Below, piece after piece: positions 8,885 to 33,525 of a stretch of 64,000 nucleotides of DNA. The first letter of the stretch is position 1. Every line of letters starts with the position of its first letter. The stretch is taken from assembly GCA_001768235.1 (NCBI GenBank), contig MENK01000008.1:62001-126000 (forward strand), in the 5' to 3' direction. The notes beneath the pieces were generated by a model. The model saw only the letters and a program-made list of their open reading frames with translations, was not told where the DNA came from and ran no database searches. The stretch comes from Bacteroidetes bacterium GWB2_32_14 (lineage in GTDB: Bacteria > Bacteroidota > Bacteroidia > Bacteroidales > UBA12077). A program made the translations under genes and the position numbers.

Positions 8885-10777
8885 ATGAAAAAATTATCAT
8901 TCATTTTTATTTTGATTCATGTGTTTGTAAGCAACTTGTTAAATGCCCAGCAAATAGAAAATTTAAGAGTAAAACAGCTAAACGATAAGATAAACCTGGT
9001 TTATGATTTAGTAAACGAAAAAACGGGACAACAATTTGATATTAAGCTTTATTGTTCTACAGATGCTGGTGCAAATTTTTCAATTACAGCAAATACAGTA
9101 ACCGGCGATATTGGTTCTGGTATTTATGGTGGAAAAGATAAAATTATTGTTTGGGATGTATTGAAAGATGTTAAGAATTTGAAAAGCGATCAAACTGTGT
9201 TTAAACTTGTTGCCACCCCGGGTATTGTTAAAAACCAGTCGGATTATATCGAAGATTTTAACTTCGAACTTATTGATTGCTATAAAAAAGAACGCACGGT
9301 TGTTTGTGCATTAAAAATAACAAATAATGGCAAGAAACGTGATTTAAAAACTATAAACCGGTTAGCTCGCATACACGATTTTAAAGGAACCAGAATTGAA
9401 TCGAATGTGAGTAAACTGGGCCAGGTTTCAGGTAACGAAAGATATGCAACACCAACACTTACCTTTAATCCGGGGCAAACAGCCATAGCACTATTTCAGT
9501 TTAATACCCCCGACGGATTTTCGAACAGGATAAAACTACTTGAATTCGGGCTCGAAATTCTTGAAATTACATATGGGCTTGATTATAAATCAGGGTATAT
9601 TGAATTCAGGGATATTTCTCTTTCAAATCCTGATAAACCAAGTAAAACCGAGTATATTTCGCAATCATTAAAAATGAATATTGGTACTGAAACCCTAAAA
9701 ATTGAAGATACAAAAGCTCCATCAATCACTTTTACATCACCCATTTTTGAAAAAAACAAATCTTTTTTGGTAAAAACAGAAGACATTATTTTAAAAGGAA
9801 AAGTTACTGATGAAAACGGGATTTTTAATTTTACAATCAATGGAATGGATATTCCGGTTAATCCTGATGGAACATTCGAGACAGATATATTCCTTGTTGA
9901 GGGCGAAAACAATGTTTTTGTCAGGGCTACAGATATTTTTCAAAATAACATTGAATTCACCCGGTTAGTAGTATTTAAGCCAGAACAGAAAAAAGATCAG
10001 CGTCAAACATCAATAGATAAACCCAAAGAATCGGACATTACCATATTTACAAATGAATCATCGAAGCAAGGCAGGTTCTACGCATTACTTATTGGAGTAA
10101 ATGAATATCCTGATCCTGAAATTGTCGATTTGGATAAGCCCGTTCAGGATGCTGAAAAACTCTACCAAAATCTTACAACTAATTACACATTTGATCCGGA
10201 AAATGTTACATTATTAAAAAACCCGACACACGAGGATATTATTTCTGAACTAGACCGTTTAGATAAACTTATTACCGAAAAAGACAATCTATTAATTTTT
10301 TATGCAGGTCATGGTTATTGGGATACAGAAGATGAAGTCGGATACTGGCTTCCATCCGATTCAAAGCAGGCAAATACAGCAAACTGGCTACGTAATAGCA
10401 CCATCAGGGATTATCTGCGAACTGTAAAGACAAAACATACCTTATTAATTGCTGATGCATGTTTTAGTGGAGGCATTTTTAAATCGCGTAATGCATTTGC
10501 CGATGCCCCGAAATCGATACAAAAGTTATACGAATTACCAAGCCGTAAAGCCATGACAAGCGGAACTCTTGAAGAAGTTCCCGATAAAAGTGTTTTTATG
10601 CTTTACCTGAATAAACGACTCGAAGAAAATACCCAGCAGTTTATTTCTGCCGAGGAATTATTCAGCAGCTTTAAAACTGCCGTATTAAATAATAGCCCCA
10701 ATATCCCTCAATATGGCGAAATAAAAGATACCGGCGATGAAGGAGGCGACTTTATTTTTGTTAAAAAGGTAAAATAA
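8885..10777 (+). CDS. Secreted caspase-like (peptidase C14) protein
   Basis: A 630-aa protein with a signal peptide (about residues 1-21, ending NLLNAQ). Residues up to about 275 are beta-rich, with DAGANFSITANTV resembling other Bacteroidota surface proteins. Residues about 278-366 resemble a bacterial Ig-like domain (APSITFTSP, later NGMDIPVNPDGTFE). The C-terminal caspase domain starts near residue 396 with GRFYALLIGVNEY and carries the catalytic dyad: His476 in YAGHGYW and Cys526 in IADACFSGG. Both residues are intact, so it should be an active cysteine peptidase outside the cytoplasm. It is a single gene, divergent from the DUF6702-like operon. Substrate is unknown. Confidence 0.88.
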   Translation: MKKLSFIFILIHVFVSNLLNAQQIENLRVKQLNDKINLVYDLVNEKTGQQFDIKLYCSTDAGANFSITANTVTGDIGSGIYGGKDKIIVWDVLKDVKNLKSDQTVFKLVATPGIVKNQSDYIEDFNFELIDCYKKERTVVCALKITNNGKKRDLKTINRLARIHDFKGTRIESNVSKLGQVSGNERYATPTLTFNPGQTAIALFQFNTPDGFSNRIKLLEFGLEILEITYGLDYKSGYIEFRDISLSNPDKPSKTEYISQSLKMNIGTETLKIEDTKAPSITFTSPIFEKNKSFLVKTEDIILKGKVTDENGIFNFTINGMDIPVNPDGTFETDIFLVEGENNVFVRATDIFQNNIEFTRLVVFKPEQKKDQRQTSIDKPKESDITIFTNESSKQGRFYALLIGVNEYPDPEIVDLDKPVQDAEKLYQNLTTNYTFDPENVTLLKNPTHEDIISELDRLDKLITEKDNLLIFYAGHGYWDTEDEVGYWLPSDSKQANTANWLRNSTIRDYLRTVKTKHTLLIADACFSGGIFKSRNAFADAPKSIQKLYELPSRKAMTSGTLEEVPDKSVFMLYLNKRLEENTQQFISAEELFSSFKTAVLNNSPNIPQYGEIKDTGDEGGDFIFVKKVK

Positions 10778-10791
10778 TATAGTCCTTTCAA

Positions 10792-10836
10792 AATATCGAA
10801 TAATCAATAAATATCGGGAGCTTCGCATTCGATATT
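10792..10836. repeat. Inverted repeat between converging genes
   Basis: AATATCGAAT (10792-10801) and ATTCGATATT (10827-10836) are exact inverted copies, with a further ATATCG between them. It lies between the 3' ends of the caspase-like gene and pyk and may form a bidirectional terminator or be a fragment of an intergenic repeat. Confidence 0.35.
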
Positions 10837-10857
10837 CCGAATTGGGTATTGGATGTT

Positions 10858-12279
10858 CTATAATAACAGATGCCCCATCAGTTTTTCAACAGTACCAATT
10901 TCTACGTATGATACCCCCATGCTGCGGCCAAAATTACCGGCTGCAACTACTATTAAATCATCCTGTTCGAAGGTGTGTTTATTTATAAGACTGGTTAATG
11001 CTTCTAAAAGAAATTCATGTGATGTTTCTTTCTGTTCCATATAATCCGGGATTACACCATAAGTTAAAGCCATTTCGCGCACTGTACGTTTTGAATAGCA
11101 TTGTGCAAATATTGGTTTTGAGCCTCTATAAGCAGCTAAAGCCCGTAAAGTTCTACCCGACATTGAATCGGCAATAATTGCCTTGGCATTTAACCGGATT
11201 GCCCCTTTTACAGCAGATTTGCACAAATAAGCTGTAGTAGCATTATTCAGTACTACCGTTGGGATATCATTAAATGGTTCTTTCGATTTTTCAACTTCCA
11301 ACGCTATCTTTGCCATTGTACATACGGCTTCAACCGGGTAATTTCCATTTGCAGTTTCTCCGCTTAACATTACTGCATCAGTATTACTATAAACAGCACT
11401 GGCTACATCATTTACTTCTGCACGTGTTGGCCGTGGATTGTCAATCATAGAATGAAGCATTTGGGTGGCAATAATCACCGGTTTGCGACGTTCAATACAT
11501 TTATTAATCAGCATTCGTTGTATTCCCGGGATTTTTTCGTATGGGATTTCAACAGCCAAATCGCCACGGGCAACCATTACTCCATAAACATGATCCAGAA
11601 TTTCATCAATATGATCAACTCCCTGCTGGTTTTCTATCTTTGCAATAATTTTAATGCTGCTTTTATGTTTATCAAGAATCTTTTGAATTTCCAAAATATC
11701 TTCCTTATTCCTTACAAATGAATGTGCAATAAAATCAATATCTTGTTCTGTTGCCAATTTTATAAATTCCTTATCACGTGAACTTACCGATGGTAAATTA
11801 AAAGATACATTGGGGACATTCACGCTTTTACGGCCTTTAATATCACCTTCATTTGTTGCTTCACAAACTAAATAATCACTTTCCTTTTTAATTACCTGTA
11901 ATTCCACGTACCCATCATCTATAAGTATCTTGCTGTCTTCGGGTACATCAGTAACAAATTCGGGATATGATACATAAATGCATTCATTCGATGATTCTTT
12001 TGAAGGGTCTCCCTTAACATGAATTCTTTGTCCCGCAACAACCTTTATTACCTGATCCGTTTTTACAGTTCTTACTTCAGGCCCTTTAGTATCAATCAAT
12101 AAAGCGATTTTTTCAGAAACCTGTCGAACATCCTGAATCACTTTTAGAGCCTGTTCAGGTGTTTGATGAGCAGTATTTAATCTTACCACATCCATTCCAT
12201 GTTCAAAAAGTGATTTTATGAATTGTGGAGTACAGGTCTTATCTGATATGGTTGCTACTATTTTGGTTTTTTTTATCAT
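10858..12279 (-). CDS. pyk: Pyruvate kinase
   Basis: A 473-aa cytosolic enzyme that converts phosphoenolpyruvate and ADP to pyruvate and ATP. The family landmarks are present: KTKIVATISDKT at the start, MDVVRLNTAH (Arg33), LIDTKGPEVRT, the active-site lysine in IIAKIENQQGVDH, GVMVARGDLAVEIP with metal ligands, and TQMLHSMIDNPRPTRAEV. The C-terminal domain has NTDAVMLSGETANG and ends normally, so it is full length. It converges with the caspase-like gene and is single. Together with ppdK and pckA in this window it makes up the PEP/pyruvate node. Confidence 0.97.
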   Translation of the reverse strand: MIKKTKIVATISDKTCTPQFIKSLFEHGMDVVRLNTAHQTPEQALKVIQDVRQVSEKIALLIDTKGPEVRTVKTDQVIKVVAGQRIHVKGDPSKESSNECIYVSYPEFVTDVPEDSKILIDDGYVELQVIKKESDYLVCEATNEGDIKGRKSVNVPNVSFNLPSVSSRDKEFIKLATEQDIDFIAHSFVRNKEDILEIQKILDKHKSSIKIIAKIENQQGVDHIDEILDHVYGVMVARGDLAVEIPYEKIPGIQRMLINKCIERRKPVIIATQMLHSMIDNPRPTRAEVNDVASAVYSNTDAVMLSGETANGNYPVEAVCTMAKIALEVEKSKEPFNDIPTVVLNNATTAYLCKSAVKGAIRLNAKAIIADSMSGRTLRALAAYRGSKPIFAQCYSKRTVREMALTYGVIPDYMEQKETSHEFLLEALTSLINKHTFEQDDLIVVAAGNFGRSMGVSYVEIGTVEKLMGHLLL

Positions 12280-12466
12280 AATACAATTACAAAGAATTTA
12301 TTTAAAAATAAGTGAAACAGAAAATTTTTCAATATGCTTAATTTTTAATTCCAATAACAAATGGTTAGGGTTTTCGTCTGGTTTCTTTATGTTCTAATAC
12401 GTAAGTATCTTTTATTAATACTGCCAAAACTCTGCTTTTTTAATAATAGCAGTAAATAAATAAAAA

Positions 12467-12856
12467 TTAAATTTCTTTCAACCAACCGCGTGCCGATTCT
12501 TCTGAATCAAAATATTTTATTGTTTCTTTATCTGTAACTTTTTTAAGATTTTTAACATAGAACTCTTTAAAAATATCTGCTTCCATAACAACTGCTATTT
12601 TTTTTAATCCGAATGAAATCGCCTTTGGAATAATTTCCTGTTGCATCCATTTTGTACTTTCTGTACCAACAACACCTTCTTTCCTGATATCAGATAAAAA
12701 ACCTGTTGTCTTATATGTTTTCATAAATTCAACAGCTTTTGTAAACATTAGTTTGTATGTTTCTGAATCTTGGTTTTTTTTCCAAATCAATTCAATTGAA
12801 TTTGTATCCTCATTATAGAAAAGGTTTGCTTTTTCATGTTCAAATAATAATTTCAT
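12467..12856 (-). CDS. SpoIIAA/STAS-like protein of unknown function
   Basis: A 129-aa soluble protein. The alternating strand-helix pattern (KANLFYNEDTNSIELIWK, TGFLSDIRKEG, LKKIAVVMEADIF, TIKYFDSEESARGWLKEI) matches the SpoIIAA-like fold common in Bacteroidota, where a final FxSxEEAxxWL helix is usual. No phosphorylatable Asp-Ser motif like that of true anti-sigma antagonists is evident, so partner switching is uncertain. It stands alone between pyk and aroQ, 69 bases from the latter. Function is not known; some such proteins are lipid-binding or sensory. Confidence 0.6.
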   Translation of the reverse strand: MKLLFEHEKANLFYNEDTNSIELIWKKNQDSETYKLMFTKAVEFMKTYKTTGFLSDIRKEGVVGTESTKWMQQEIIPKAISFGLKKIAVVMEADIFKEFYVKNLKKVTDKETIKYFDSEESARGWLKEI

Positions 12857-12925
12857 AATTTTAAAATTTAGTTTATGTTAGCAATTAATTCTCAGTTCAC
12901 AATTTTATGTTTTTTGGTTGACTTC

Positions 12926-13354
12926 TTATTTTTTTTTCAATACTCTCAGGCTTTCTATTGCCAGCCTGTAACTATCGAGTCCGAATCCAGAAATACTACC
13001 TTTGCATTTTGGAGCTATAATTGATATATGCCTGAATTCTTCACGTGCAAAAACATTTGATATATGAACTTCAACAACCGGAGTTTTAATTGCAGCAATG
13101 GCATCTGCAATAGCAACTGAAGTATGGGTGTAGCCTCCCGCATTCAGAACAATACCGTCAAATGAAAAACCAACTTCGTGAATTTTATTGATTATCTCTC
13201 CTTCTACATTGGATTGAAAATAATCAATGGTGAAATCAACAAAAAGTTCTTTTAAAAGCTCAAGGTATTTTTCAAAAGGAATATCACCATAAATGTCTTT
13301 CTCTCGTTTTCCTAATAAATTCAGGTTAGGCCCATTAATTATTTGAATTTTCAT
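12926..13354 (-). CDS. aroQ: Type II 3-dehydroquinate dehydratase
   Basis: A 142-aa enzyme of the shikimate pathway that dehydrates 3-dehydroquinate to 3-dehydroshikimate. It matches the compact type II family: IQIINGPNLNLLGKRE, the catalytic Tyr22 in IYGD, the DFTIDYFQSNVEGEII segment, VLNAGGYTHTSVAIADA, and the catalytic His in VVEVHISNVFAREEFRH. ISGFGLDSYRLAIESL ends the fold. Length is normal for the dodecameric enzyme. It is divergent from xerD, with about 80 bases between the starts. Confidence 0.96.
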   Translation of the reverse strand: MKIQIINGPNLNLLGKREKDIYGDIPFEKYLELLKELFVDFTIDYFQSNVEGEIINKIHEVGFSFDGIVLNAGGYTHTSVAIADAIAAIKTPVVEVHISNVFAREEFRHISIIAPKCKGSISGFGLDSYRLAIESLRVLKKK

Positions 13355-13435
13355 GTAAGTAATTTATCATATCTAATACAAATTTAAGCATAATCATTAA
13401 CTTTGAAAAAGGTTGATTTGATTTTATCTTCTTTT

Positions 13436-14338
13436 ATGAACTGGGAACAAATTATAGTGCAATTCAGAAATTTTTTGAAGCTCGAAAAATCTCTCTCTGC
13501 AAATTCTATATCTGCCTACGAAACAGATGTACGGAAATTTGTTACATACCTTGAAATTAAAGAGTTGGCTATTACACCCAATCAAGTTAAACTAAAAGAC
13601 CTTAAAAATTTTATCGAATGGATTAATGAGCTGGGCTTGCATGCCCGATCACAATCGCGTATTATTTCCGGATTAAAGTCCTTTTTTAAATTTCTTTTAC
13701 TCGACAATCAAATAGAAACAGACCCATCGGGTTTGCTTGAATCACCAAAAATTGGAAGAAAGCTTCCTGAAGTATTATCGATTATTGAAATAGACAAGAT
13801 AATTGCTGCTATTGATTTAAGTGCTCCTGAGGGCCAGCGAAATAAAGCAATTATTGAAACATTATACAGTTGTGGGTTACGTGTTTCAGAGCTTGTTAAT
13901 TTAAAAATAACAAATCTTTTTTTTGATGAAGGATTTATTAAAGTTATTGGTAAAGGCAGCAAGGAACGCCTAGTACCCATTGGCAGTAAAGCAATAAAAG
14001 AAATTGAATTGTATTTTAATGATCGGAATTTACTTCCAAATGTTGACAAAGCCAGTCAGAATATTGTTTTCCTTAATCGAAGAGGAAAACAATTAACACG
14101 TGTAATGATTTTTACAATTATAAAACGGCTTGTTGAAAAAGCCCAGATAAAAAAAACTATAAGCCCTCACACATTCCGTCATTCGTTTGCAACCCATTTA
14201 ATTGATGGTGGTGCAGATTTGCGGGCAGTGCAGGAAATGCTGGGGCATGAATCTATTATCACAACTGAAATTTATACTCATTTAGATCGTGAATATTTAC
14301 GCGATGCAATTATACGCTTCCACCCAAGAGCATTATGA
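13436..14338 (+). CDS. xerD: Site-specific tyrosine recombinase XerD
   Basis: A 300-aa recombinase that resolves chromosome dimers at dif sites together with XerC. I chose ATG 13436 over an in-frame TTG at 13403 because MNWEQIIVQFRNFLKLEKSL gives the usual N-terminus of the SAM-like DNA-binding domain. The catalytic set is complete: Arg149 (CGLRVSEL), Lys173 (IGKGSKER), His245 and Arg248 (SPHTFRHSF), His271 (LGHESI) and nucleophile Tyr280 (EIYTHL). The spacing equals that of Escherichia coli XerD shifted by one. No dif-like site was identified in the window, and the gene is not linked to mobile DNA. Confidence 0.94.
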   Translation: MNWEQIIVQFRNFLKLEKSLSANSISAYETDVRKFVTYLEIKELAITPNQVKLKDLKNFIEWINELGLHARSQSRIISGLKSFFKFLLLDNQIETDPSGLLESPKIGRKLPEVLSIIEIDKIIAAIDLSAPEGQRNKAIIETLYSCGLRVSELVNLKITNLFFDEGFIKVIGKGSKERLVPIGSKAIKEIELYFNDRNLLPNVDKASQNIVFLNRRGKQLTRVMIFTIIKRLVEKAQIKKTISPHTFRHSFATHLIDGGADLRAVQEMLGHESIITTEIYTHLDREYLRDAIIRFHPRAL

Positions 14339-14494
14339 ATTATGAATTATTTTCCTGCAAACCTTTGCTTCAATACTTTAAAAGCAGGTTCGTTTTTTCA
14401 GAACATAGTTATCTTGTTAATATTCTGTATATTATATATAAACAGCTATTTATTAAAATCCTTTGTAGGTGCTTAAAATAATCTTACTGTAAGC

Positions 14495-14524
14495 ATTGAA
14501 TTTGTTAATTTTTAAATATATTTG
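14495..14524 (+). promoter_or_regulatory. Probable ppdK promoter
   Basis: ATTG at 14495-14498 and TATATTTG at 14517-14524 are 18 bases apart, matching the Bacteroidota -33/-7 pattern with one mismatch in the upstream box. The -7 box ends 67 bases before the ppdK ATG. The rest of the 253-base gap after xerD is AT-rich with only a weak hairpin near 14354-14388. Confidence 0.45.
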
Positions 14525-14591
14525 TATCCTGCAAAATATTTTTATTTAAGATAGTCATATTCAATTATTTATAAATTTAAATTTCATTAAA

Positions 14592-17309
14592 ATGTCAAAC
14601 GTAAAAAGAGTTTACACATTTGGTGATAAAAAAGCCGAAGGTAATGCCAGTATGAAAAACCTGCTGGGTGGTAAAGGTGCAAACCTTGCTGAAATGAATC
14701 TTATAGGTGTACCTGTTCCTCCCGGCTTTACAATCACAACCGATGTATGTGCCGAATACAACAAATTAGGAAAAGATAAAGTTGTTGAACTACTTAAAAC
14801 CGAAGTTGAAGCTGCTGTTAAATATGTTGAAAAAATTATGGGAACACAATTTGGCAGCAACGAAAATCCATTATTAGTTTCTGTACGTTCAGGTGCTCGT
14901 GCTTCAATGCCGGGTATGATGGATACAATACTTAACCTTGGAATGAATGATGCTGCTGTTGAAGGAATAACAAAGAGAACAGGCAATGCACGTTTTGCAT
15001 GGGATTCGTACCGACGTTTTGTTCAAATGTATGGCGATGTTGTTTTAGGTATGAAACCTCAATCAAAAGAAGAAATCGATCCCTTCGAAGAAATCATGGA
15101 ACAGGTGAAACATGCTAAAGGTGTTCATCTTGATACAGAATTAACTGTTGACGATTTAAAAGAACTTGTTATAAAATTTAAAGCTGCTGTTAAAAAACAA
15201 ACCGGGCATGATTTTCCAACAAATCCATGGGAACAATTATGGGGTTCAGTAATGGCTGTATTCGACAGTTGGCAAAACCCAAGAGCTGTATATTACCGGG
15301 CATTAAATCAGATTCCTGAAGAATGGGGAACTGCTGTTAACGTACAAGCCATGGTATTTGGTAATATGGGCGAAAATTCGGGTACTGGTGTTGCATTTAC
15401 AAGAAATGCAAGCACCGGAGAAGATATTTTCAACGGGGAATACTTAATTAATGCACAAGGCGAAGATGTGGTAGCCGGTATTCGAACACCACAGGAAATA
15501 ACCAAAGAAGGTTCATTGCGTTGGGCAAAACTAACAGGTGTTTCTGAAGAAGAAAGAGCTAAGAATTATCCATCGCTCGAAGAAAAAATGCCAGCCATTT
15601 ATAAAGAACTCAACGAAGTTCAGCAAAAACTCGAAGATCATTATAAAGATATGCAAGATCTGGAGTTTACTATTCAGGATGGTAAATTATGGATGCTCCA
15701 AACACGAAATGGTAAACGTACTGCTGCTGCAATGGTTAAAATTGCAATGGATCTTTTAAAACAAGGTGTTATCGACGAAAAAACAGCCATCCTTCGTCAG
15801 GAGCCAAACAAACTTGACGAATTGTTACACCCTGTATTCTCGAAAGAAGGTAAGAAAAATGCAAAAGTTTTGGCAAAAGGATTACCTGCTTCACCTGGTG
15901 CAGCTACCGGACAAATTGTGTTCTTTGCTGATGAAGCCAAAAAATTCCCTGCTTCAATACTGGTTCGTACAGAAACTTCTCCCGAAGATTTAGAAGGTAT
16001 GAACATTGCAAAAGGTATATTAACTGCCCGTGGTGGTATGACATCTCACGCTGCTGTTGTGGCCCGTGGTATGGGTAAATGTTGTGTTTCTGGTGCCGGA
16101 GCAGTAAATATAAATTACAAAACCCGAATAATGAATATTGATGGTGTTGAGTTTAAAGAAGGTGATTGGATTTCATTAAACGGATCAACAGGTGAAGTTT
16201 ACCAGGGAAAAATCGAAACACAAGATCCTGATTTAAGTGGTGATTTTGGTGATATTATGAAAATGGCCGATAAATATAGAGTAATGGATGTTCGCACAAA
16301 TGCCGATACTCCTCATGATGCAAAGGTTGCAAGAGAATTTGGTGCTCATGGTATTGGTTTGTGCCGTACAGAACACATGTTCTTCGAAGGCGAAAGAATT
16401 AAGGCCATGCGTGAAATGATTCTTGCAGAAACCGAAAAAGATCGCAGAAAAGCTCTTGAAAAACTTTTACCATATCAACGATCAGATTTCGAAGGAATTC
16501 TTGAAGCAATGGCCGGTTATGGCGTTACTATACGTTTACTCGATCCTCCATTACACGAATTTGTTCCTCACGAAGAAGCAAATCAAAAAGAAATGGCAAA
16601 GGAAATGGGTATTTCTGTAGAAGAAATAAAACGTAAAGTAGATTCTTTACACGAGTTTAACCCCATGTTAGGGCATCGTGGTTGCCGCTTAGGAATCACA
16701 TATCCTGAAATTACCGAAATGCAAGCTCGTGCAATTATCGAAGCTGCTGTTAATTTGAAGAAAAAAGGTATTGATGCCCGGCCTGAAATTATGATTCCTT
16801 TAATCGGAACAGCTAAGGAATTTACATTACAGGAAGAACTAATACGTAAAACTGCTGAAAAAGTATTTGCTGAAAAAGGAACAAAAATCGATTACCTTGT
16901 AGGTACCATGATTGAAATTCCAAGAGCTGCATTAACTGCCGGCGATATCGCTGAAAGAGCAGAATTCTTCTCTTTTGGTACAAACGATTTAACCCAAATG
17001 ACATTTGGCTATTCTCGTGATGATGCCGGTAAATTCTTACCTGTGTATTTAAAACAAGGTATATTGAAAAATGATCCATTCCAAATTCTTGACCAAACAG
17101 GCGTTGGCCAGTTAGTAGAAATGGGTACTAAAAATGGCAGAGCAAAACGTCCAAACTTAAAAGTTGGTATCTGTGGTGAACATGGTGGCGAACCCAGCTC
17201 TGTTGAATTCTGTTTCAGAGTTGGAATGAACTATGTTTCTTGTTCTCCATTCCGCGTTCCTATTGCACGTTTAGCTTCTGCACAAGCTACAATAAAAGCC
17301 GGAAAATAA
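14592..17309 (+). CDS. ppdK: Pyruvate, phosphate dikinase
   Basis: A 905-aa enzyme interconverting pyruvate + ATP + Pi and PEP + AMP + PPi. The ATP-grasp domain begins [15 protein letters not shown] and has [19 protein letters not shown]. The swivelling phosphohistidine domain carries [18 protein letters not shown] with catalytic His486. The TIM-barrel PEP domain shows [13 protein letters not shown] and the active-site Cys in [14 protein letters not shown]. Length and motifs fit the bacterial PPDK family. It is a single-gene unit with its own promoter and a strong terminator 20 bases past the stop. It can run in the glycolytic or gluconeogenic direction, alongside pyk and pckA. Confidence 0.97.
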
Positions 17310-19344: not shown

Positions 19345-20037
19345 ATGTTTATAGTAATCAATATTATAATTATCATATTTGCTTATCTAATAGGTTCTAT
19401 TCCAACATCAGTTTGGATTGGCAGGTATTTTTACAACATTGATATCAGAGAACATGGTAGTGGCAATGCCGGGGCAACAAATACCTTCAGAATTTTAGGC
19501 ACAAAGGCAGGAGTTATTGTTTTTATTGTTGATGTTCTAAAAGGATTTGGTGCAGTTAACCTGATTCATTTTACCAGTTATTACATTCCTCACAGTGGTA
19601 GTTATACGAATATTCAGCTTTTATTAGGTATTGCAGCTATGATTGGGCATATTTTTCCAATTTATGTAGGATTTCGGGGAGGAAAAGGCGTAGCTACTCT
19701 TTTCGGTGTAATTTGGGCTATTAGTTTTTACCCGACTTTAATTATGGCAGGTATATTTTTTATCACGTTGATATTAACCCGTTATGTATCGTTAAGTTCT
19801 ATGATATCCGGATTATCATTTCCTTTTTTAATTATCGTGGTTTTTAAGGAAACGACTCCTACTCTTGTCATATTCTCTTTAATAATGGCTGTTTTAATGC
19901 TATTTACCCATCAAAAAAATATTGAACGACTATTACGAAAAGAAGAGAAAAAAGCAAATCTTCCAAAACTTAAAAAGGAAAATCTCCCAAAACTGAAAAG
20001 GAGAAAAAGGAAAAAGAAAAAAGAAATAGCCGGATAA
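19345..20037 (+). CDS. plsY: Glycerol-3-phosphate acyltransferase PlsY
   Basis: A 230-aa inner-membrane enzyme that transfers the acyl group of acyl-phosphate to glycerol-3-phosphate, the first step of phospholipid synthesis. The three PlsY motifs are present: LIGSIPTSVWIGR, HGSGNAGATNTFRILG and GHIFPIYVGFRGGKGVA. Five or so hydrophobic helices fit the family. Beyond the normal end at about residue 195 there is a basic tail with a tandem unit NLPKLKKE-NLPKLKRR followed by a Lys/Arg run, which is not needed by the family. Its stop codon lies within a terminator stem that it shares with the converging dehydrogenase gene. Confidence 0.95.
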   Translation: MFIVINIIIIIFAYLIGSIPTSVWIGRYFYNIDIREHGSGNAGATNTFRILGTKAGVIVFIVDVLKGFGAVNLIHFTSYYIPHSGSYTNIQLLLGIAAMIGHIFPIYVGFRGGKGVATLFGVIWAISFYPTLIMAGIFFITLILTRYVSLSSMISGLSFPFLIIVVFKETTPTLVIFSLIMAVLMLFTHQKNIERLLRKEEKKANLPKLKKENLPKLKRRKRKKKKEIAG

Positions 20038-25500: not shown

Positions 25501-26583
25501 GTGATCCGGTTTCTGATTAAACGGTTATTGTATGCAATTCTCATTTTATGGGGTGTAGTTACCGTAGTATTTTTTCTTTTTACAATTTTACCGGGCGATC
25601 CTGCAAAAATGATGCTCGGGCAACGAACCGATGTTATTACTATTGAAGCAATCCGTAAAGACCTCGGCCTCGATCGCTCAAAGCCGATGCAATATTTAAA
25701 ATACTTAAATGACTTATCTCCCGTTTCAATTCATAATATCTCGAATATCAACAACTACTTTTATATCGATTCAACAAAATACCAATCTCCAGTTTCTATT
25801 TTAAAACTCAATAAAAATTATTCAGTTTATTTAAAGAAACCTTATTTGCGCAAATCATACCAAAGCAAAAAACTTGTTTCAGATATAATTAGCGAAACAC
25901 TTCCAAATACATTTATTCTCGCTCTTGTTTCAATCATTTTTGCATCTTTACTTGGCATTTTTTTAGGTATCATTTCAGCTATTAAAAAAGACAGTTTATA
26001 CGACAGAATTTCACTCTTGTTTTCAGCAATAGGAATGTCACTTCCTTCCTTTTTCGCTGCTATTCTAATTGGCTGGATATTTGCATTTATTTTGGGCGAT
26101 ATTACCGGTTTAAACCTAACAGGAAACCTTTACGAGATTAATGATTTTGGCGAGGGTTATACTTTACAGTTAAAGAACCTGGTACTTCCGGCATTTACTT
26201 TAGGAATCAGGCCATTAGCTATTGTAACCCAGCTTTCACGAAATTCCATGCTCGACGTGCTTTCGCAGGATTATATTCGGACAGCTAAAGCAAAAGGACT
26301 TTCTTTTTCGAATATCATTTGGAAGCATGCATTAAAAAACTCATTAAATCCTGTTATTACGGCAATCTCTGGCTGGTTTGCATCACTCATGACCGGCGTT
26401 GTTTTTGTTGAATATATTTTTGGCTGGAAAGGTTTGGGGTTTATTATTGTTGATTCATTAAATAATTACGATTTACCCGTAGTTGTCGGATGTGTATTAA
26501 CTATATCAATGTTATTTATAATAATAAATACTTTAGTTGATATTGTTTATACAATTCTCGATCCCCGAATCAGATTATCATAA
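25501..26583 (+). CDS. Peptide/nickel-type ABC transporter permease (DppB/OppB family)
   Basis: A 360-aa inner-membrane permease starting at GTG. The N-terminus RFLIKRLLYAILILWGVVTVVFF followed by LPGDPAKMMLG is the classical DppB/OppB start. Six membrane helices are visible, and the EAA loop contacting the ATPase is DYIRTAKAKGLSFSNIIWKH. About 55 residues between helix 1 and helix 2 (region of IHNISNINNYFYIDSTK) form an extended periplasmic loop typical of Bacteroidota relatives. No DppC partner, ATPase or binding protein adjoins it; tpiA follows. It may pair with a permease elsewhere. Confidence 0.9.
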   Translation: MIRFLIKRLLYAILILWGVVTVVFFLFTILPGDPAKMMLGQRTDVITIEAIRKDLGLDRSKPMQYLKYLNDLSPVSIHNISNINNYFYIDSTKYQSPVSILKLNKNYSVYLKKPYLRKSYQSKKLVSDIISETLPNTFILALVSIIFASLLGIFLGIISAIKKDSLYDRISLLFSAIGMSLPSFFAAILIGWIFAFILGDITGLNLTGNLYEINDFGEGYTLQLKNLVLPAFTLGIRPLAIVTQLSRNSMLDVLSQDYIRTAKAKGLSFSNIIWKHALKNSLNPVITAISGWFASLMTGVVFVEYIFGWKGLGFIIVDSLNNYDLPVVVGCVLTISMLFIIINTLVDIVYTILDPRIRLS

Positions 26584-27444: not shown

Positions 27445-28290
27445 ATGAATTATATTGAATTGGTTTGTAAAATTAGTGCTGAGAATCCTGAAGAAATTAA
27501 AGGAATACTTATTGCCGAAATGAACGAAATTGATTTCGAGAGCTTTGATGAAACCGCTGATGGAATAAAAGCATATATCCCGGAGCATCTTTTTAATATA
27601 GAAAATGTTAAAGAATTACAGGTGAATTCATTAACTAATTGTATTATTGAATACAGATGGGAAAAAATAAAAACTGAAAACTGGAATGAATTATGGGAAA
27701 AAAATTTCGAACCCATAATTGTTGATAACAGATGTACTATAAGAGCACCTTTCCACGACAATACTCCTGAAACAGAGTTCGAAATTATTATTGAACCTAA
27801 AATGTCATTTGGAACCGGTCATCACGAAACAACCCATTTAATGATTAAATCCATGCTTCAGGTAGAATTAAAAGGAATGGATGTTCTCGACATGGGTTGC
27901 GGTACAGGTGTTCTGGCAATCCTGGCATCTTTAAAAGGAGCAAAAAACATTACGGCTATTGATATTGATGAATGGGCATATCAAAACTGTATCGAAAATA
28001 TTGAAAAAAATAATTGTACCAATATTTCTGTTTTTCAGGGCGACGCAGAACTCATTAAAAACAAGGTTTTCGATTTTATTCTTGCAAATATCAACAGGAA
28101 TATTCTTTTACATGATATAAAATATTACTCTAAATCTTTAAAAATTTCGGGAAACCTCTTATTAAGCGGAGTTTACGAAACCGATCTTGATATGATCAAA
28201 GAAGAAGCCTTAAAGCAAAATTTGTTATTTGAACACGTTGAATCTAAAAACAACTGGGTTTCTGCCAGTTTTCGAAAGATCAATTCATAA
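27445..28290 (+). CDS. prmA: Ribosomal protein L11 methyltransferase
   Basis: A 281-aa SAM-dependent methyltransferase that modifies lysines and the N-terminus of L11. The N-terminal substrate-recognition domain covers about residues 1-70 and is followed by a linker. The catalytic domain has MSFGTGHHETTHLM and motif I around Asp149 (VLDMGCGTGVLAILA), then ITAIDIDEWAYQNC and FILANINRNIL, the NxN-type segment of PrmA. Length is normal. It lies between tpiA (9-base gap) and the 1537-aa protein gene (16-base gap). Confidence 0.95.
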   Translation: MNYIELVCKISAENPEEIKGILIAEMNEIDFESFDETADGIKAYIPEHLFNIENVKELQVNSLTNCIIEYRWEKIKTENWNELWEKNFEPIIVDNRCTIRAPFHDNTPETEFEIIIEPKMSFGTGHHETTHLMIKSMLQVELKGMDVLDMGCGTGVLAILASLKGAKNITAIDIDEWAYQNCIENIEKNNCTNISVFQGDAELIKNKVFDFILANINRNILLHDIKYYSKSLKISGNLLLSGVYETDLDMIKEEALKQNLLFEHVESKNNWVSASFRKINS

Positions 28291-28306: not shown

Positions 28307-31300
28307 ATGACAATCAGGATTATTGCAGGAAAAATATTTTTTTCAGTACAAATAATACTTTTAACTCTTAAAATCCAGGCACAGGAATTAAAAGAATTTT
28401 CTTCCGATTCATTGCTTTTTATAAACCAATTCGAAGAATTTGTAAATAAAAATATAAACGAAAGCGATAAAACAAACCTGGATGTATTTGTTGAAAAATG
28501 GAAAACGCGTGGCTTTGATAAAGCAATTGAAACCCGCATTACAGAAGTATGTAATTTTCTTCTAAAAAATAAAGCTCAACGAAATCCTCATTTTACAAAA
28601 TACCTGGAAACAGTTTTAGCTTTCCATTCCAATGATAAAGCAATGAAAAACTATGATGAGTGGGAAAAAGGGATAAGTTTCATTATCACAAATGAAAAAA
28701 GCCCTCTTGGAAAACTTAATTCATATTTAGATAATACCTTGGGATTAATTAAAGATAGCATTATTTACAAGTCGTATGCAACAACATGGTTTGTCAGCTC
28801 AGGTGATTTTAAAATTGAAACAGGCAAAACAGTTCGGATTTTATTTAACAAAACAGATATCACGTGTAAAATTAAAAACGACAGTATCAATATATATAAC
28901 ACACAAGGAATTTATTATCCGATAACGAATACGTGGAAAGGAGAAAAAGGAAAAGTAAACTGGATACAAGCCGGGTATCCTGTCGAGAATGTTTTTGCCG
29001 ACTTGAATAAATATACCATTGATTTAACTAAATCTGGTTATCAGGCCGATTCCGCGAGTTTTACGAATACGATATACTTCGATAAACCTATTTTAGGAAA
29101 ATTAGAAGACCAGGTTGTACATAACATGGGCAGTGATAAAGCCATTTATCCCGAATTTAATTCATACCAGAAACGTTTCCAGATAAAAGAAATTTATCCC
29201 GATATTGATTACGACGGAGGTTTTTCAATGAAAGGGGCAAATTTAATTGGTTCCGGAATTAAAAACCAGGAAGCATTTCTCTTCATTAAAAAAGAAGGAA
29301 AAAAAATAATGACTGCCAGATCTGAAACATTTTTATTTAAAAAAGATAAAGTAATTTCAAATAGTGCGCAGGTAACTTTAAAATTAGAAAACGATTCTAT
29401 TTTTCACCCCGGCATCATGTTTACATACGAGGTAAAAAACAATGAAATAACATTAAACCCTAACGACAGGATAGTTTCTGAAAGCCCTTTTTTTGATTCC
29501 TATCATAATATTTTTATGAAGTTCGACCGGCTAATGTGGCAGACGAATACCAATAAAATGTATTTAACATCGGCAAGAGGCTCTTCTATTGGCAATGCTA
29601 CATTTACATCTGCAAATTTTTACAATCTTGTTGACTATGAAAGTATTCAGGCACGCGACAATCAACATCCTCTCTACTTAATAAAAACATTTGCCCGGAT
29701 GAAAAAATCGGAACAGTTTAAAGCCGATGAATTTGCAAATTATATGGGTTACCCGGTACACCAGGTAAGACAAATGCTCATGTTTATCAGCCGGGATGGT
29801 TTTATTTTTTACGACTTTGATAATGATCTGGTAACAATAAACCAGCGTTTATACGATTACATTAACTCGAGATTAGGCAAAATTGATTACGACGTAATAA
29901 AATTCTATTCCCAAACCGAAGGTTTAACGCATAATGGTGTTTACGATATCAGCACTTCCGAACTTGAAATAAACGGGGTTCCCCGCATTTTTTTGTCTGA
30001 TTCTCAAAACGTTGTAATATCCCCAAAAAATCAAAAAATTGTAATGAAAAAAAACCGCAGTTTTAGTTTTGGTGGTGTTATCAATGCAGGGCTTTTTACT
30101 TTCTATGGTGATGTTTTTCATTTCGATTACGATACCTTTAAAATAAATCTTAACAATGTCGATTCACTTAATATCAAGGTTCAAACCAGTGGATACGACT
30201 TGTACGGGAAATCTGTTCTTACAGCAGTTCAAAATACCATTAAGTTAGTAACAGGAAATTTACTTATCGATGATCCTAAAAATAAATCCGGACTGAAAAG
30301 CTATCCTCAATACCCTATATTTATTAGTTCCGAAAACTCATTTGTTTATTATAATAGTCACAATATACAGGGTGGTGTTTATAAACAGGAAAACTTCTAT
30401 TTTAAATTAGACCCATTTGTAATCGATAGTCTTGATAATTTTAAAACCAAAAATTTGTATTTTAATGGTGAGTTTTTCTCAGCAAATATCTTCCCTCCTT
30501 TCGAAGATTCCATTTACCTTCGCCAGGACTATTCATTAGGTTTTAACCGTTTAACTCCTCCCGAAGGTTTTCCTCTTTACCAGGGCAAAGGAACTTATTT
30601 TAACGAGATCGATTTAAGCAATCGGGGATTAAGAGGTAATGGTACTCTTGAATATTTAACAAGCACCAGTAATTCCGATGATATCATTTTCTTTCCTGAC
30701 TCAACAAAAATTCACGCTAAGGATTTTTCTATTGCCCAGGTTACTACAGGTATCGAATTCCCCAATGTTAGCTCCTCCGAAATCGATATTAAATGGTACC
30801 CGTATAAGGATGTTATGCTTGTAGAACAAACAAAAGACCCATTTACTCTGTTCAATCAAAACATAAAATTAAGCGGTTCATTAAAACTACAGCCAACAGG
30901 ATTAAGCGGAAAAGGAACAATTGACATGGATAAAGCAATCCTGTCTTCAAAATTATTTAATTTCGATGCTTTAAAATTCAATTCCGACACAACAAACTTT
31001 AAATTAAAATCAATTGATAAGGCTGACTTTAATTTTATTTCATCAAACCTGAAAGCTAAGGTAGATTTAGCCTCTCAGACAGGAAAATTTGAAACTAATG
31101 ATAATTATTCTGTTTCAGAGTTTCCAAAAAATCTGTACCAGTGTTATCTCGACCAATTTCAATGGAAAATAAATGTTGACGAAATACATATCGACTCAAA
31201 CCCTCTGACTGATACAATTTCATATCCTGTTGTTGATCAACTGGCAAAACTTAAAGATGATAAATTACCCGGTGCATTATTTTTATCTGTTCATCGAAGC

Positions 31301-32920
31301 CAGGATTCTTTGCGTTTTTCATCAACAAAAGCAGTATATAAACTCGCGGATAGTACGATAAATGCAAGTGAAGTAAAATACATAAGAGTTGCCGATGCAT
31401 CTGTTTATCCTAAAAACGGGAAAGTTACTGTAGGCAATTTAGCAGAAATGAATACACTCGTTGATTCAAAAGTAGAAGCAAACAACCAAACAAAATACCA
31501 TACCATTTACGATTCGAAAATAAATATCAGGGGACGTTATAATTATATGGGGTCTGGTGAAATAGATTATATTGATGAAATTAAAACAAAACAAACTATT
31601 CATCTTACTGATATTCATGTAGATTCAACCCGTCAGACTTTTGCCGTTGGTAAAATTCTATCAGAAGATGCTTTTACTTTAAGCCCGGTTTATAAATTCA
31701 ATGGAAACGTTGAATTGTATGCATCCAAAAAATACCTGACATTTAAAGGTGGTGTAAGTATTGAACACGAATGCCCCAAAATAGGGAATGATTTTGCTTA
31801 TTTTGAATCAGAAATTAATCCCGACACCATTTATATTCCCATAAGCAATAATCTTCGTAATTTAATTCGTCGTGAGTTATTTGCTGGCAGTTTTATAACC
31901 AAAGACTCATCACATATCTATTCATCATTTTTAACCCGAAGACGCGACCCAAATGATGAAGCTATTGTAAAAGCAACAGGCTATCTGTTTTACAACAAGA
32001 ACTCAAGAAAATACATAATTGCCGAAAAATCAAAAATTTTAAACCCTGATACTACAGGAAGCCTTGTAAATCTTAATAAAGATTTTTGCTTATTACATGG
32101 CGAAGGAATAATAAACCCGGGAATCGAACTTGGTCAGGTAAAAATGTCTCCTGCAGGTTCTTTTAATCACGATTTGGATAAAAATGAAATAAAACTCGAG
32201 TTAATTTTGCCTCTCGATTTTTTCTTCTCTGACGCTGCCCTCGATTCATTAAGTTCTGATTTACAATCTCAAAAATTGGAATCGTTTAATATTACATCTC
32301 CATTTTTTGAAAAAAATATGAATGAACGATATGGAAAAGACAATACCACTGAATTTAAAAATCAAAATATGTTGTTTGCTTCTGAAGCCAAAATACCTAA
32401 AGATATTCAACATACCATTTTATTGGGTAATATTAAATTAAAATGGTTTACCGAAACCGGGAGTTATTTATCGTATGGTAAAATTGGTATCTCTACAATA
32501 AATAATAAACCCGTTAATAAATATGTCGAAGGTTATTTTCAGCTTCTGAAAAGGCGAAGCGGTGATTTATTAAAATTTTATATTAAGCTTCCAAATAACA
32601 ATTATTACTATTTTACTTATTCAAGGGGTGTAATGCAAACACTCTCTAACAACAAAAAATTTGTAGATGCTATTCAGGCTATTAAAAATAAAAACAGGAA
32701 ACTGAGTACACCCAGAAATGAAACACCCTACAGGTATATTATTGCAACTGAACAAAATATGCAACAATTTCTGCGTGATATCAGGTTATTTGAAGAAGCT
32801 CAAAACATAAAAACGAATGAACAGGAAAAAACAACCATTGAACAACCTGTTTTTGAAGAACCAATAGATTCAATACAAATTAATGATGACCTTGAAAATG
32901 ATTCAACGGATACAAATTGA
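28307..32920 (+). CDS. Very large exported protein of unknown function (1537 aa)
   Basis: I do not recognise a named family. An N-terminal hydrophobic segment (AGKIFFSVQIILLTLKIQAQ) is a likely signal peptide. The first 200 residues look helical and the rest is mostly beta-rich, with many repeated phrases of the type FYGDVFHFDYDTFKINL, SLKLQPTGLSGKGTIDM and KVDLASQTGKFETND. This resembles stacked beta-solenoid or OstA-like segments. A helical island at residues about 469-522 (EQFKADEFANYMGYPVHQVR, then MLMFISRDGFIFYDF) reads like a winged-helix unit inside an exported protein. The tail is acidic and Gln/Asp-rich. It sits between prmA and a methyltransferase with 16- and 11-base gaps. Confidence 0.75.
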   Translation: MTIRIIAGKIFFSVQIILLTLKIQAQELKEFSSDSLLFINQFEEFVNKNINESDKTNLDVFVEKWKTRGFDKAIETRITEVCNFLLKNKAQRNPHFTKYLETVLAFHSNDKAMKNYDEWEKGISFIITNEKSPLGKLNSYLDNTLGLIKDSIIYKSYATTWFVSSGDFKIETGKTVRILFNKTDITCKIKNDSINIYNTQGIYYPITNTWKGEKGKVNWIQAGYPVENVFADLNKYTIDLTKSGYQADSASFTNTIYFDKPILGKLEDQVVHNMGSDKAIYPEFNSYQKRFQIKEIYPDIDYDGGFSMKGANLIGSGIKNQEAFLFIKKEGKKIMTARSETFLFKKDKVISNSAQVTLKLENDSIFHPGIMFTYEVKNNEITLNPNDRIVSESPFFDSYHNIFMKFDRLMWQTNTNKMYLTSARGSSIGNATFTSANFYNLVDYESIQARDNQHPLYLIKTFARMKKSEQFKADEFANYMGYPVHQVRQMLMFISRDGFIFYDFDNDLVTINQRLYDYINSRLGKIDYDVIKFYSQTEGLTHNGVYDISTSELEINGVPRIFLSDSQNVVISPKNQKIVMKKNRSFSFGGVINAGLFTFYGDVFHFDYDTFKINLNNVDSLNIKVQTSGYDLYGKSVLTAVQNTIKLVTGNLLIDDPKNKSGLKSYPQYPIFISSENSFVYYNSHNIQGGVYKQENFYFKLDPFVIDSLDNFKTKNLYFNGEFFSANIFPPFEDSIYLRQDYSLGFNRLTPPEGFPLYQGKGTYFNEIDLSNRGLRGNGTLEYLTSTSNSDDIIFFPDSTKIHAKDFSIAQVTTGIEFPNVSSSEIDIKWYPYKDVMLVEQTKDPFTLFNQNIKLSGSLKLQPTGLSGKGTIDMDKAILSSKLFNFDALKFNSDTTNFKLKSIDKADFNFISSNLKAKVDLASQTGKFETNDNYSVSEFPKNLYQCYLDQFQWKINVDEIHIDSNPLTDTISYPVVDQLAKLKDDKLPGALFLSVHRSQDSLRFSSTKAVYKLADSTINASEVKYIRVADASVYPKNGKVTVGNLAEMNTLVDSKVEANNQTKYHTIYDSKINIRGRYNYMGSGEIDYIDEIKTKQTIHLTDIHVDSTRQTFAVGKILSEDAFTLSPVYKFNGNVELYASKKYLTFKGGVSIEHECPKIGNDFAYFESEINPDTIYIPISNNLRNLIRRELFAGSFITKDSSHIYSSFLTRRRDPNDEAIVKATGYLFYNKNSRKYIIAEKSKILNPDTTGSLVNLNKDFCLLHGEGIINPGIELGQVKMSPAGSFNHDLDKNEIKLELILPLDFFFSDAALDSLSSDLQSQKLESFNITSPFFEKNMNERYGKDNTTEFKNQNMLFASEAKIPKDIQHTILLGNIKLKWFTETGSYLSYGKIGISTINNKPVNKYVEGYFQLLKRRSGDLLKFYIKLPNNNYYYFTYSRGVMQTLSNNKKFVDAIQAIKNKNRKLSTPRNETPYRYIIATEQNMQQFLRDIRLFEEAQNIKTNEQEKTTIEQPVFEEPIDSIQINDDLENDSTDTN

Positions 32921-32931
32921 CGAAAATATCT

Positions 32932-33525
32932 ATGAAAGAAACCTGGGATAAAAGGTATAATTCAAATGAGTTTGTTTATGGTGTTAAACCCAATGAATTT
33001 TTAAAATCAATTTTAGAAAAAATAAAACCAGGTACTATCTTATTACCTGGCGATGGCGAAGGGAGAAACTCTGTATTTGCTGCAAAATTGGGTTGGAAAG
33101 TTGATGCATTTGATTATAGCCTGGAGGGTTACAATAAAGCTAAAAAATTAGCTAAAAAGAATAATGCTGATATTAACTATTTTATATCAGATGTTTCGGT
33201 ATTTGATACAAAAATACAATACGATTTTATTGCAATCATTTTTCTTCATTTACCACCCGAAATCAGAGCTTCTTTCTTCAAAAATTTGGTTCATTTTCTT
33301 AAACCCGGGGGGTATATTTTGCTTGAAGCCTTCTCGAGAGAACAAATACAAAATACATCAGGAGGGCCAAAAGACGTAACCCTGTTATATGATTTGCAGG
33401 AAATTAAAGAAGATTTCCAACAACTTACCATCGAATTAGCAGAAGAAAAGAAAATCATTTTAGATGAAGGTAAGTTACATCAGGGAAAAGCAAGCGTAAT
33501 AAGGTTATTAGCAAAGAAAGATTAG
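32932..33525 (+). CDS. Class I SAM-dependent methyltransferase (TehB-like)
   Basis: A 197-aa cytosolic methyltransferase. I chose ATG 32932 over TTG 32917 because MKETWDKRYNSNEFVYGVKP matches the family start. Motif I is LLPGDGEGRNSVFAAKLGWK, followed by VDAFDYS (acidic loop), IAIIFLHLPPEIR and LKPGGYILLEAF. The layout is that of small thiopurine/tellurite-type methyltransferases, but the substrate is unknown. It lies 11 bases after the 1537-aa gene and overlaps by 4 bases the converging phosphodiesterase gene. Confidence 0.85.
   Translation: MKETWDKRYNSNEFVYGVKPNEFLKSILEKIKPGTILLPGDGEGRNSVFAAKLGWKVDAFDYSLEGYNKAKKLAKKNNADINYFISDVSVFDTKIQYDFIAIIFLHLPPEIRASFFKNLVHFLKPGGYILLEAFSREQIQNTSGGPKDVTLLYDLQEIKEDFQQLTIELAEEKKIILDEGKLHQGKASVIRLLAKKD

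Follow-up and report, generated by a model that had tools for sequence, protein, structure and literature searches.

The route by which lipids other than lipopolysaccharide (LPS) travel to the outer membrane is still debated. The OstA-type jellyrolls of the Lpt proteins, which are divergent in sequence, are hydrophobic grooves, V-shaped in outline, which bind lipid A and are joined end to end (head to tail) as a single sheet, according to PMC6164715. TamB and the related AsmA-like proteins, of which F. johnsoniae has seven, form tubes comparable to the Lpt grooves; TamL and TamB are both required for the viability of F. johnsoniae and of C. canimorsus, and the study reporting on TamL presents itself as the first functional one of a TAM subunit outside the Proteobacteria (PMC12045153). 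Here we compare with these systems a gene of Bacteroidetes bacterium GWB2_32_14 located at 28307-32920 of a 64,000-nucleotide stretch of contig MENK01000008.1 (positions 62,001 to 126,000 of its forward strand), which we refer to as the window and whose coordinates are used throughout. The gene encodes a 1537-residue protein of a conserved family with an export signal, two predicted Lpt-fold modules, internal repeats, amphipathic strands, a coupled pair of cysteines, and linkage to prmA.

The gene is a single intact forward-strand frame of 1537 codons with an ATG start, and among the open reading frames (ORFs) of at least 150 amino acids (aa) it is the longest in the window, the next being 934 aa; a reading made earlier from the sequence only had already singled it out for its size. 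It is single-copy in the host assembly (3.66 Mb in 36 contigs), where a protein search and a profile of residues 546-1500 both returned the gene itself and no paralogue. Homologues in relatives span the full length at identities falling to approximately 22-29% and mostly lack internal stops, which argues that this is a real gene; among the matches listed in the search of relatives' genomes, two near-full-length frames contain one TAG each. The same reading saw no recognised domain, and a remote homology search likewise finds no characterised family at the sequence level. Pfam and NCBIfam scans of the 1537-aa protein yield no family above cut-off (up to E 10 they list nothing but RPA_C at E 0.089 and PRK10030 at E 0.094), scans of six diverse relatives also yield none above threshold, and a phmmer search of PDB sequences with the protein returns no match up to E 10. 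Weak rows in the Pfam, NCBIfam and PDB phmmer searches and in searches with two profiles (RPA_C, PRK10030, TFE 1q1h, acyltransferase 4yzo, a Fab chain, MC8, PRK07740 and CsgE) were rejected, being below cut-off or at E values of at least 0.059; those to RPA_C and TFE map onto the winged helix described below and are consistent with its fold. No paper title on this family is among the matches listed from the open-licence literature.

AlphaFold2 was run on two overlapping segments using alignments of 70 and 69 sequences, giving an N-side model of residues 24-1160 (predicted local distance difference test, pLDDT, 89.5) and a C-side model of residues 546-1500 (pLDDT 90.7), both of high local confidence. 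Both were compared with the PDB by Foldseek, and VIA-align then served as a second look over Foldseek's list, with 50 rows shown per model. The top Foldseek row is LptD for both models (E 2e-4 for the C-side and 1.2e-4 for the N-side; entry 4q35, titled only 'membrane protein', which we take to be LptD), and at E ≤ 0.001 all six C-side hits and nine of the ten N-side hits are LptD, the remaining one being DDB1. In VIA-align, rows 1-18 of the C-side model are all LptA, LptC, LptD or LptH (Z 12.5 to 7.8), followed by an axonemal protein at Z 6.7, and rows 1-16 of the N-side model are Lpt proteins (Z 12.9 to 9.2), with winged helices next, from Z 8.0. The best C-side matches are LptC 6mjp_C (Z 12.5, root-mean-square deviation [rmsd] 2.0 Å over 122 residues) and 6mit_C (Z 12.1), LptD 9rps (Z 11.7), LptA 2r1a (Z 10.7), and LptH 4uu4 (Z 9.8), and those of the N-side are LptD 9a39 (Z 12.9, rmsd 2.9 over 152), LptC 6mit_C (Z 11.2), and LptA 2r1a (Z 10.5); sequence identity across the Lpt matches is 4-12%. 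Both models locate this jellyroll at approximately residues 843-1050. A second lies at approximately 553-741 in the C-side model, with matches to LptD 8h1r_A (Z 9.8, rmsd 3.7 over 138), 7omm_A (Z 8.3, rmsd 5.2 over 150), and 8h1s_C (Z 7.8, rmsd 4.3 over 145); the 50 N-side rows do not include a match of this region to Lpt proteins, though the region lies inside that model. In the predicted models both modules are twisted antiparallel beta-jellyrolls (Z up to 12.9 for 843-1050 and 7.8-9.8 for 553-741), and residues 843-1050 and 553-741 are thus predicted to adopt the OstA/Lpt-type fold; OstA/LptD-like grooves were among the possibilities raised by the sequence-only reading. The features of the gene, together with its conserved upstream neighbour, are as follows (residue limits approximate):

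27445..28290, + strand: prmA (PF06325), the conserved gene upstream
28307..32920, + strand: whole gene, a predicted exported multi-domain beta protein of 1537 aa (frame, relatives)
28307..28384, + strand: predicted signal peptide, residues 1-26, no lipobox (N-terminal hydrophobic core, script rule)
28409..28756, + strand: predicted all-helical N-terminal domain, residues 35-150 (AlphaFold2 model of 24-1160, helices at model positions 12-127)
28760..29617, + strand: predicted beta region 1 with amphipathic strands, residues 152-437 (model; its second half weakly resembles 843-1050)
29645..29869, + strand: predicted winged helix, residues 447-521 (2pex_B, Z 8.0, rmsd 2.1 Å over 66 residues; weak profile match to the TFE chain 1q1h, E 0.11, at the same place)
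29963..30529, + strand: predicted Lpt-like beta-jellyroll, residues 553-741 (LptD matches, Z 7.8-9.8)
30833..31456, + strand: predicted Lpt-like beta-jellyroll, residues 843-1050 (LptC, LptD and LptA matches, Z up to 12.9)
31457..32236, + strand: further predicted beta region with Cys 1156 and Cys 1261, residues 1051-1310 (model, family alignment)
32237..32806, + strand: predicted C-terminal alpha/beta region, residues 1311-1500 (C-side model)
32807..32917, + strand: low-complexity tail, poorly conserved (family alignment)

The models thus run from the helical domain through the beta sheets of 152-437 and the winged helix into a long run of strands (approximately 532-1310), and end in a C-terminal part, where LptD has its outer-membrane beta-barrel, whose predicted secondary structure (residues 1311-1500) mixes helices and strands. 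The winged helix, whose helices and hairpin match those of MarR/OhrR proteins, coincides with an island that had been noticed from the sequence at residues 469-522; since the protein that carries it is exported, DNA binding by this domain seems unlikely, and in this it is unlike MarR/OhrR, being embedded in an exported beta protein. The beta-rich repeats described in the sequence-only reading are borne out at the profile level: residues 751-828 resemble 842-917 (hhalign probability 96, E 4.6e-9), residues 540-584 resemble 1001-1042 (probability 84, E 7.6e-6), and there is a weaker similarity of 300-425 to 853-967 (probability 38). Five further hhalign pairs (b1a-b1b, b2-b3, b4-b5, b5-b6 and b6-C) were not counted as repeats, because adjacent segments share 6-16 residues at their cut ends and hits between them are artefacts. 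The strands are also amphipathic, with a mean even-odd hydropathy difference of 2.34 over 72 strands against 1.50 in shuffled strands, and none of 1000 shuffles reaches the observed value; taken by region outside the C-terminal part, 0, 8, 1 and 0 of 1000 shuffles reach the observed amphipathicity.

The neighbourhood and signal-peptide counts rest on named loci that are the best 80 of 428 confirmed stretches in genome contigs; with the window they form a neighbourhood set of 81 loci, each with a family ORF, of which 77 are long enough to scan for signal peptides. Signal peptides and lipoboxes were called by a simple script rule and not by a trained predictor. An N-terminal hydrophobic core is present in 76 of the 77 long members, the window included, the sole exception beginning at a contig end; a lipobox is present in none, and 65 of the 77 have A, G or S followed by Q at residues 15-34. 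The only N-terminal hydrophobic stretch of the protein ends in AQ and reads more like a signal peptide, probably cleaved, than an inner-membrane anchor. Cysteines 1156 and 1261 are both present in 88 of 96 aligned rows and both absent from the other eight, and neither occurs singly; this alignment, which also served for the profile comparisons and the hydropathy test, includes near-duplicates, some genomes and contigs apparently being the same organism. The coupling suggests a disulfide between them, and with it a location outside the cytoplasm. The envelope role that had been thought possible fits the signal peptide without a lipobox and the cysteine pair.

All 80 loci derive from metagenome-assembled genome records, 79 of them labelled as a Bacteroidota group and one as Verrucomicrobia, and the closest of these best 80 stretches is that of Bacteroidetes bacterium GWF2_33_16 (a metagenome genome; 72% identity). 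Presence across Bacteroidota was followed up at two depths. Among relatives, a protein search matches 47 of 59 genomes, own included, and the 12 relatives' genomes lacking a match all belong to the same order as the host. Phylum-wide, a single-protein search finds 11 of 296 genomes and a 20-sequence profile 14 of 392, with own counted in both; the remaining hits fall in the same class, and the six same-order genomes listed in the profile search, own excepted, have no match. The family is large yet without a name, and patchy across the phylum. Two family alignments, A3 and A4, omit 11 and 12 of the 80 loci, respectively: both leave out L086, L095, L100, L102 and L103 (where a neighbouring longer ORF was picked), L075 (Ns), L054, L059, L085 and L101 (short or cut), and L069 (a near-duplicate), and A4 also leaves out L066, where the frame ends early. 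In L101 the gene is broken into two frames of 1298 and 214 aa, perhaps through a sequencing error or as a pseudogene.

The tight linkage to prmA and to a small methyltransferase gene that was reported from the sequence is upheld for the former and proves local for the latter. The gap between prmA and the gene is 16 nucleotides (nt). Of the 80 loci, 67 have prmA as the immediate upstream gene, one has it slightly further off, eight show none, and the remaining four lack upstream sequence. Within a distant set of ten genomes (L031-L046), prmA adjoins the gene in six (L032, L034, L035, L036, L037 and L044), where the protein is approximately 25-27% identical, and is undetected in the other four, one of which lacks upstream sequence. 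The pair stays together where the remaining neighbours change. The downstream gene (32917-33525) encodes a TehB-like methyltransferase; its listed TTG start gives a 4 nt overlap, but its relatives begin at the residue equivalent to the ATG at 32932, which is therefore the likelier start and leaves an 11 nt gap. This methyltransferase is directly downstream in only eight of the 80 loci, plus several members of the host's own genus, with seven loci lacking downstream sequence, and we conclude that the prmA link, extending to distant loci, is old whereas the methyltransferase link is local. In 19 of the 80 loci, and likewise in L025, L041 and L042, deep lineages among them, the gene directly downstream is one that we take to be plsY, presumably encoding an acyltransferase of phospholipid synthesis; the window has its own plsY at 19345-20037. 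Further upstream, tpiA is two genes away in 50 of the 81 loci, and a lone ATP-binding cassette (ABC) permease gene (25501-26583, BPD_transp_1) has a counterpart three genes upstream in 34 of the 81; no further transporter subunit was seen among its scanned neighbours. In four loci (L086, L095, L100 and L102, at approximately 10500-16400) a second giant protein with a signal-like N-terminus is encoded directly downstream of the gene; it is 1841 aa long in L095 and at least ~1970 aa in the other three, where the frames run to the locus end. Segments of it are, we presume, PD40-like, and BLAST clustering groups it with a window protein encoded at 51355-53430 on the reverse strand.

The simplest reading of an exported chain with several predicted jellyrolls is that of a periplasmic lipid groove or bridge. 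Stated more fully, the protein would be a soluble periplasmic groove built from one chain, with several Lpt-like jellyrolls, whose task would be to carry or shield a lipid and which would supplement the Lpt and TAM systems, and to this we give an even chance. Several OstA/Lpt-type jellyrolls would follow one another along the exported chain, the helical N-terminal domain and the winged-helix insert may serve as docking elements, and the groove would shield the acyl chains of a lipid (a phospholipid, LPS, or one specific to Bacteroidota) between the inner and outer membranes, working alongside the Lpt and TAM machinery that the cell already has. It is from the predicted fold that we infer this step to function, and with it that the remaining beta regions would be of the same kind, that the groove would be continuous, and that it would bind lipid with some direction, cargo and partners. 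The occurrence of plsY downstream of the gene was counted in favour. The protein resembles LptA, LptC and the N-terminal domain of LptD in the predicted fold of two modules, in its amphipathic strands, and in its predicted periplasmic site; it differs in being a single 1537-aa chain as opposed to separate subunits, in lacking detectable sequence homology, in adding a helical domain and a winged helix, and in belonging to a host with Lpt genes of its own. The jellyroll fold is known; what is new is that such modules are predicted in a single-chain architecture under no family name that we found. A broader proposal, that these proteins form an unnamed class of single-chain trans-periplasmic lipid ducts, with concatenated Lpt-like jellyrolls and built-in docking domains moving a Bacteroidota lipid (phospholipid or lineage-specific) in parallel to Lpt and TAM, we regard as rather doubtful.

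A number of observations weigh against a lipid-carrying groove. The Foldseek hits at E ≤ 0.001 have query-normalised template-modelling (TM) scores of only 0.07-0.14 and rmsd of 27-48 Å, so the support is for Lpt-fold modules and not for the arrangement of a whole Lpt protein, and because the predicted TM-scores of the C-side and N-side models are no higher than 0.62 and 0.59 it is uncertain what overall shape the protein has and whether a groove would run through it without a break. The amphipathicity of the C-terminal part is not clear (64 of 1000 shuffles reach the observed value), and amphipathic strands, while fitting a groove, are expected of most beta proteins. Seven of the eight rows without cysteines are distant relatives, and the coupling may therefore reflect about two events. 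No match is present in 378 of the 392 sampled Bacteroidota genomes, and the family is therefore not universally required. Both prmA and tpiA work in other processes, and the linkage to prmA would need no more explanation than a common promoter of a growth-linked operon. The single-layer sheet of OspA is also matched weakly by both models (Z 5-6), and this bears on the possibility that the protein is structural, with elongated beta sheets and docking domains that hold envelope machines apart or anchor them but transport no lipid. The helical N-terminal domain and the winged helix, neither of them a groove, and a conserved linkage to housekeeping genes and not to transporters would suit such a scaffold, but the Lpt jellyrolls outscore the OspA sheets (Z up to 12.9) and a hydrophobic face on the strands would be needless in an exposed single-layer sheet; we consider a scaffold somewhat unlikely.

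The host genome separately encodes an OstA_2 protein of 506 aa, an LptD_2 of 905 aa, an LptC of 198 aa, two LptF/LptG-type proteins, and a TamB of 1509 aa, and the 1537-aa protein is therefore not a missing LptA or LptD of the host but an addition to them. This, and the presence of OstA_2 in 37 of 39 genomes, counting the host's own and including three (G026, G032 and G039) with no match to the gene, make it improbable that the protein is an accessory of the Lpt pathway, such as an alternative or extended LptA that in these lineages receives LPS from LptC and delivers it to LptD, even though its top fold matches are LptC, LptA and LptD. The OstA, LptC and LptD family models have no sequence match in Pfam and NCBIfam scans of seven family members, no LptD or LptD_2 domain appears up to E 10 in the Pfam scan of the protein itself (the LptD_2 of the genome being a different gene), and hhalign comparison of 12 segments finds no homology to 30 OstA_2 or 22 TamB proteins of relatives (all probabilities below 2, in a comparison without a positive control). 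Because Lpt jellyrolls diverge in sequence, the missing OstA_2 profile match is weak evidence against kinship. The TamB profile used has 975 columns and does not cover the whole protein; 22 of 25 TamB loci, cut at their flanks, gave a stretch of at least 700 aa. In size, beta-rich composition and envelope setting the protein is like TamB and the AsmA-like proteins, its length being near that of the host's own TamB, and Bacteroidota can hold many AsmA-like proteins, as the seven of F. johnsoniae illustrate (PMC12045153). It could then be a repeating beta-groove bridge of AsmA/TamB type, diverged past recognition, instead of one of Lpt type; however, the Pfam scan gives no row for TamB (PF04357) or AsmA, there is no profile similarity to the tested part of TamB, and the N-terminus looks more like a cleavable signal peptide than an inner-membrane anchor, so that we consider this origin unlikely. 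AsmA-like or TamB chains are absent from the 50 rows shown per model, although this is not evidence of absence.

If the protein is a lipid groove, as its predicted modules suggest, then the jellyroll would have been reused outside the Lpt pathway. A conserved, unannotated single-chain family with a predicted Lpt groove fold offers experiments on Bacteroidota a definite gene as their target, and its predicted chained groove folds make the 1537-aa protein a candidate for a lipid bridge new to the bacterial envelope.

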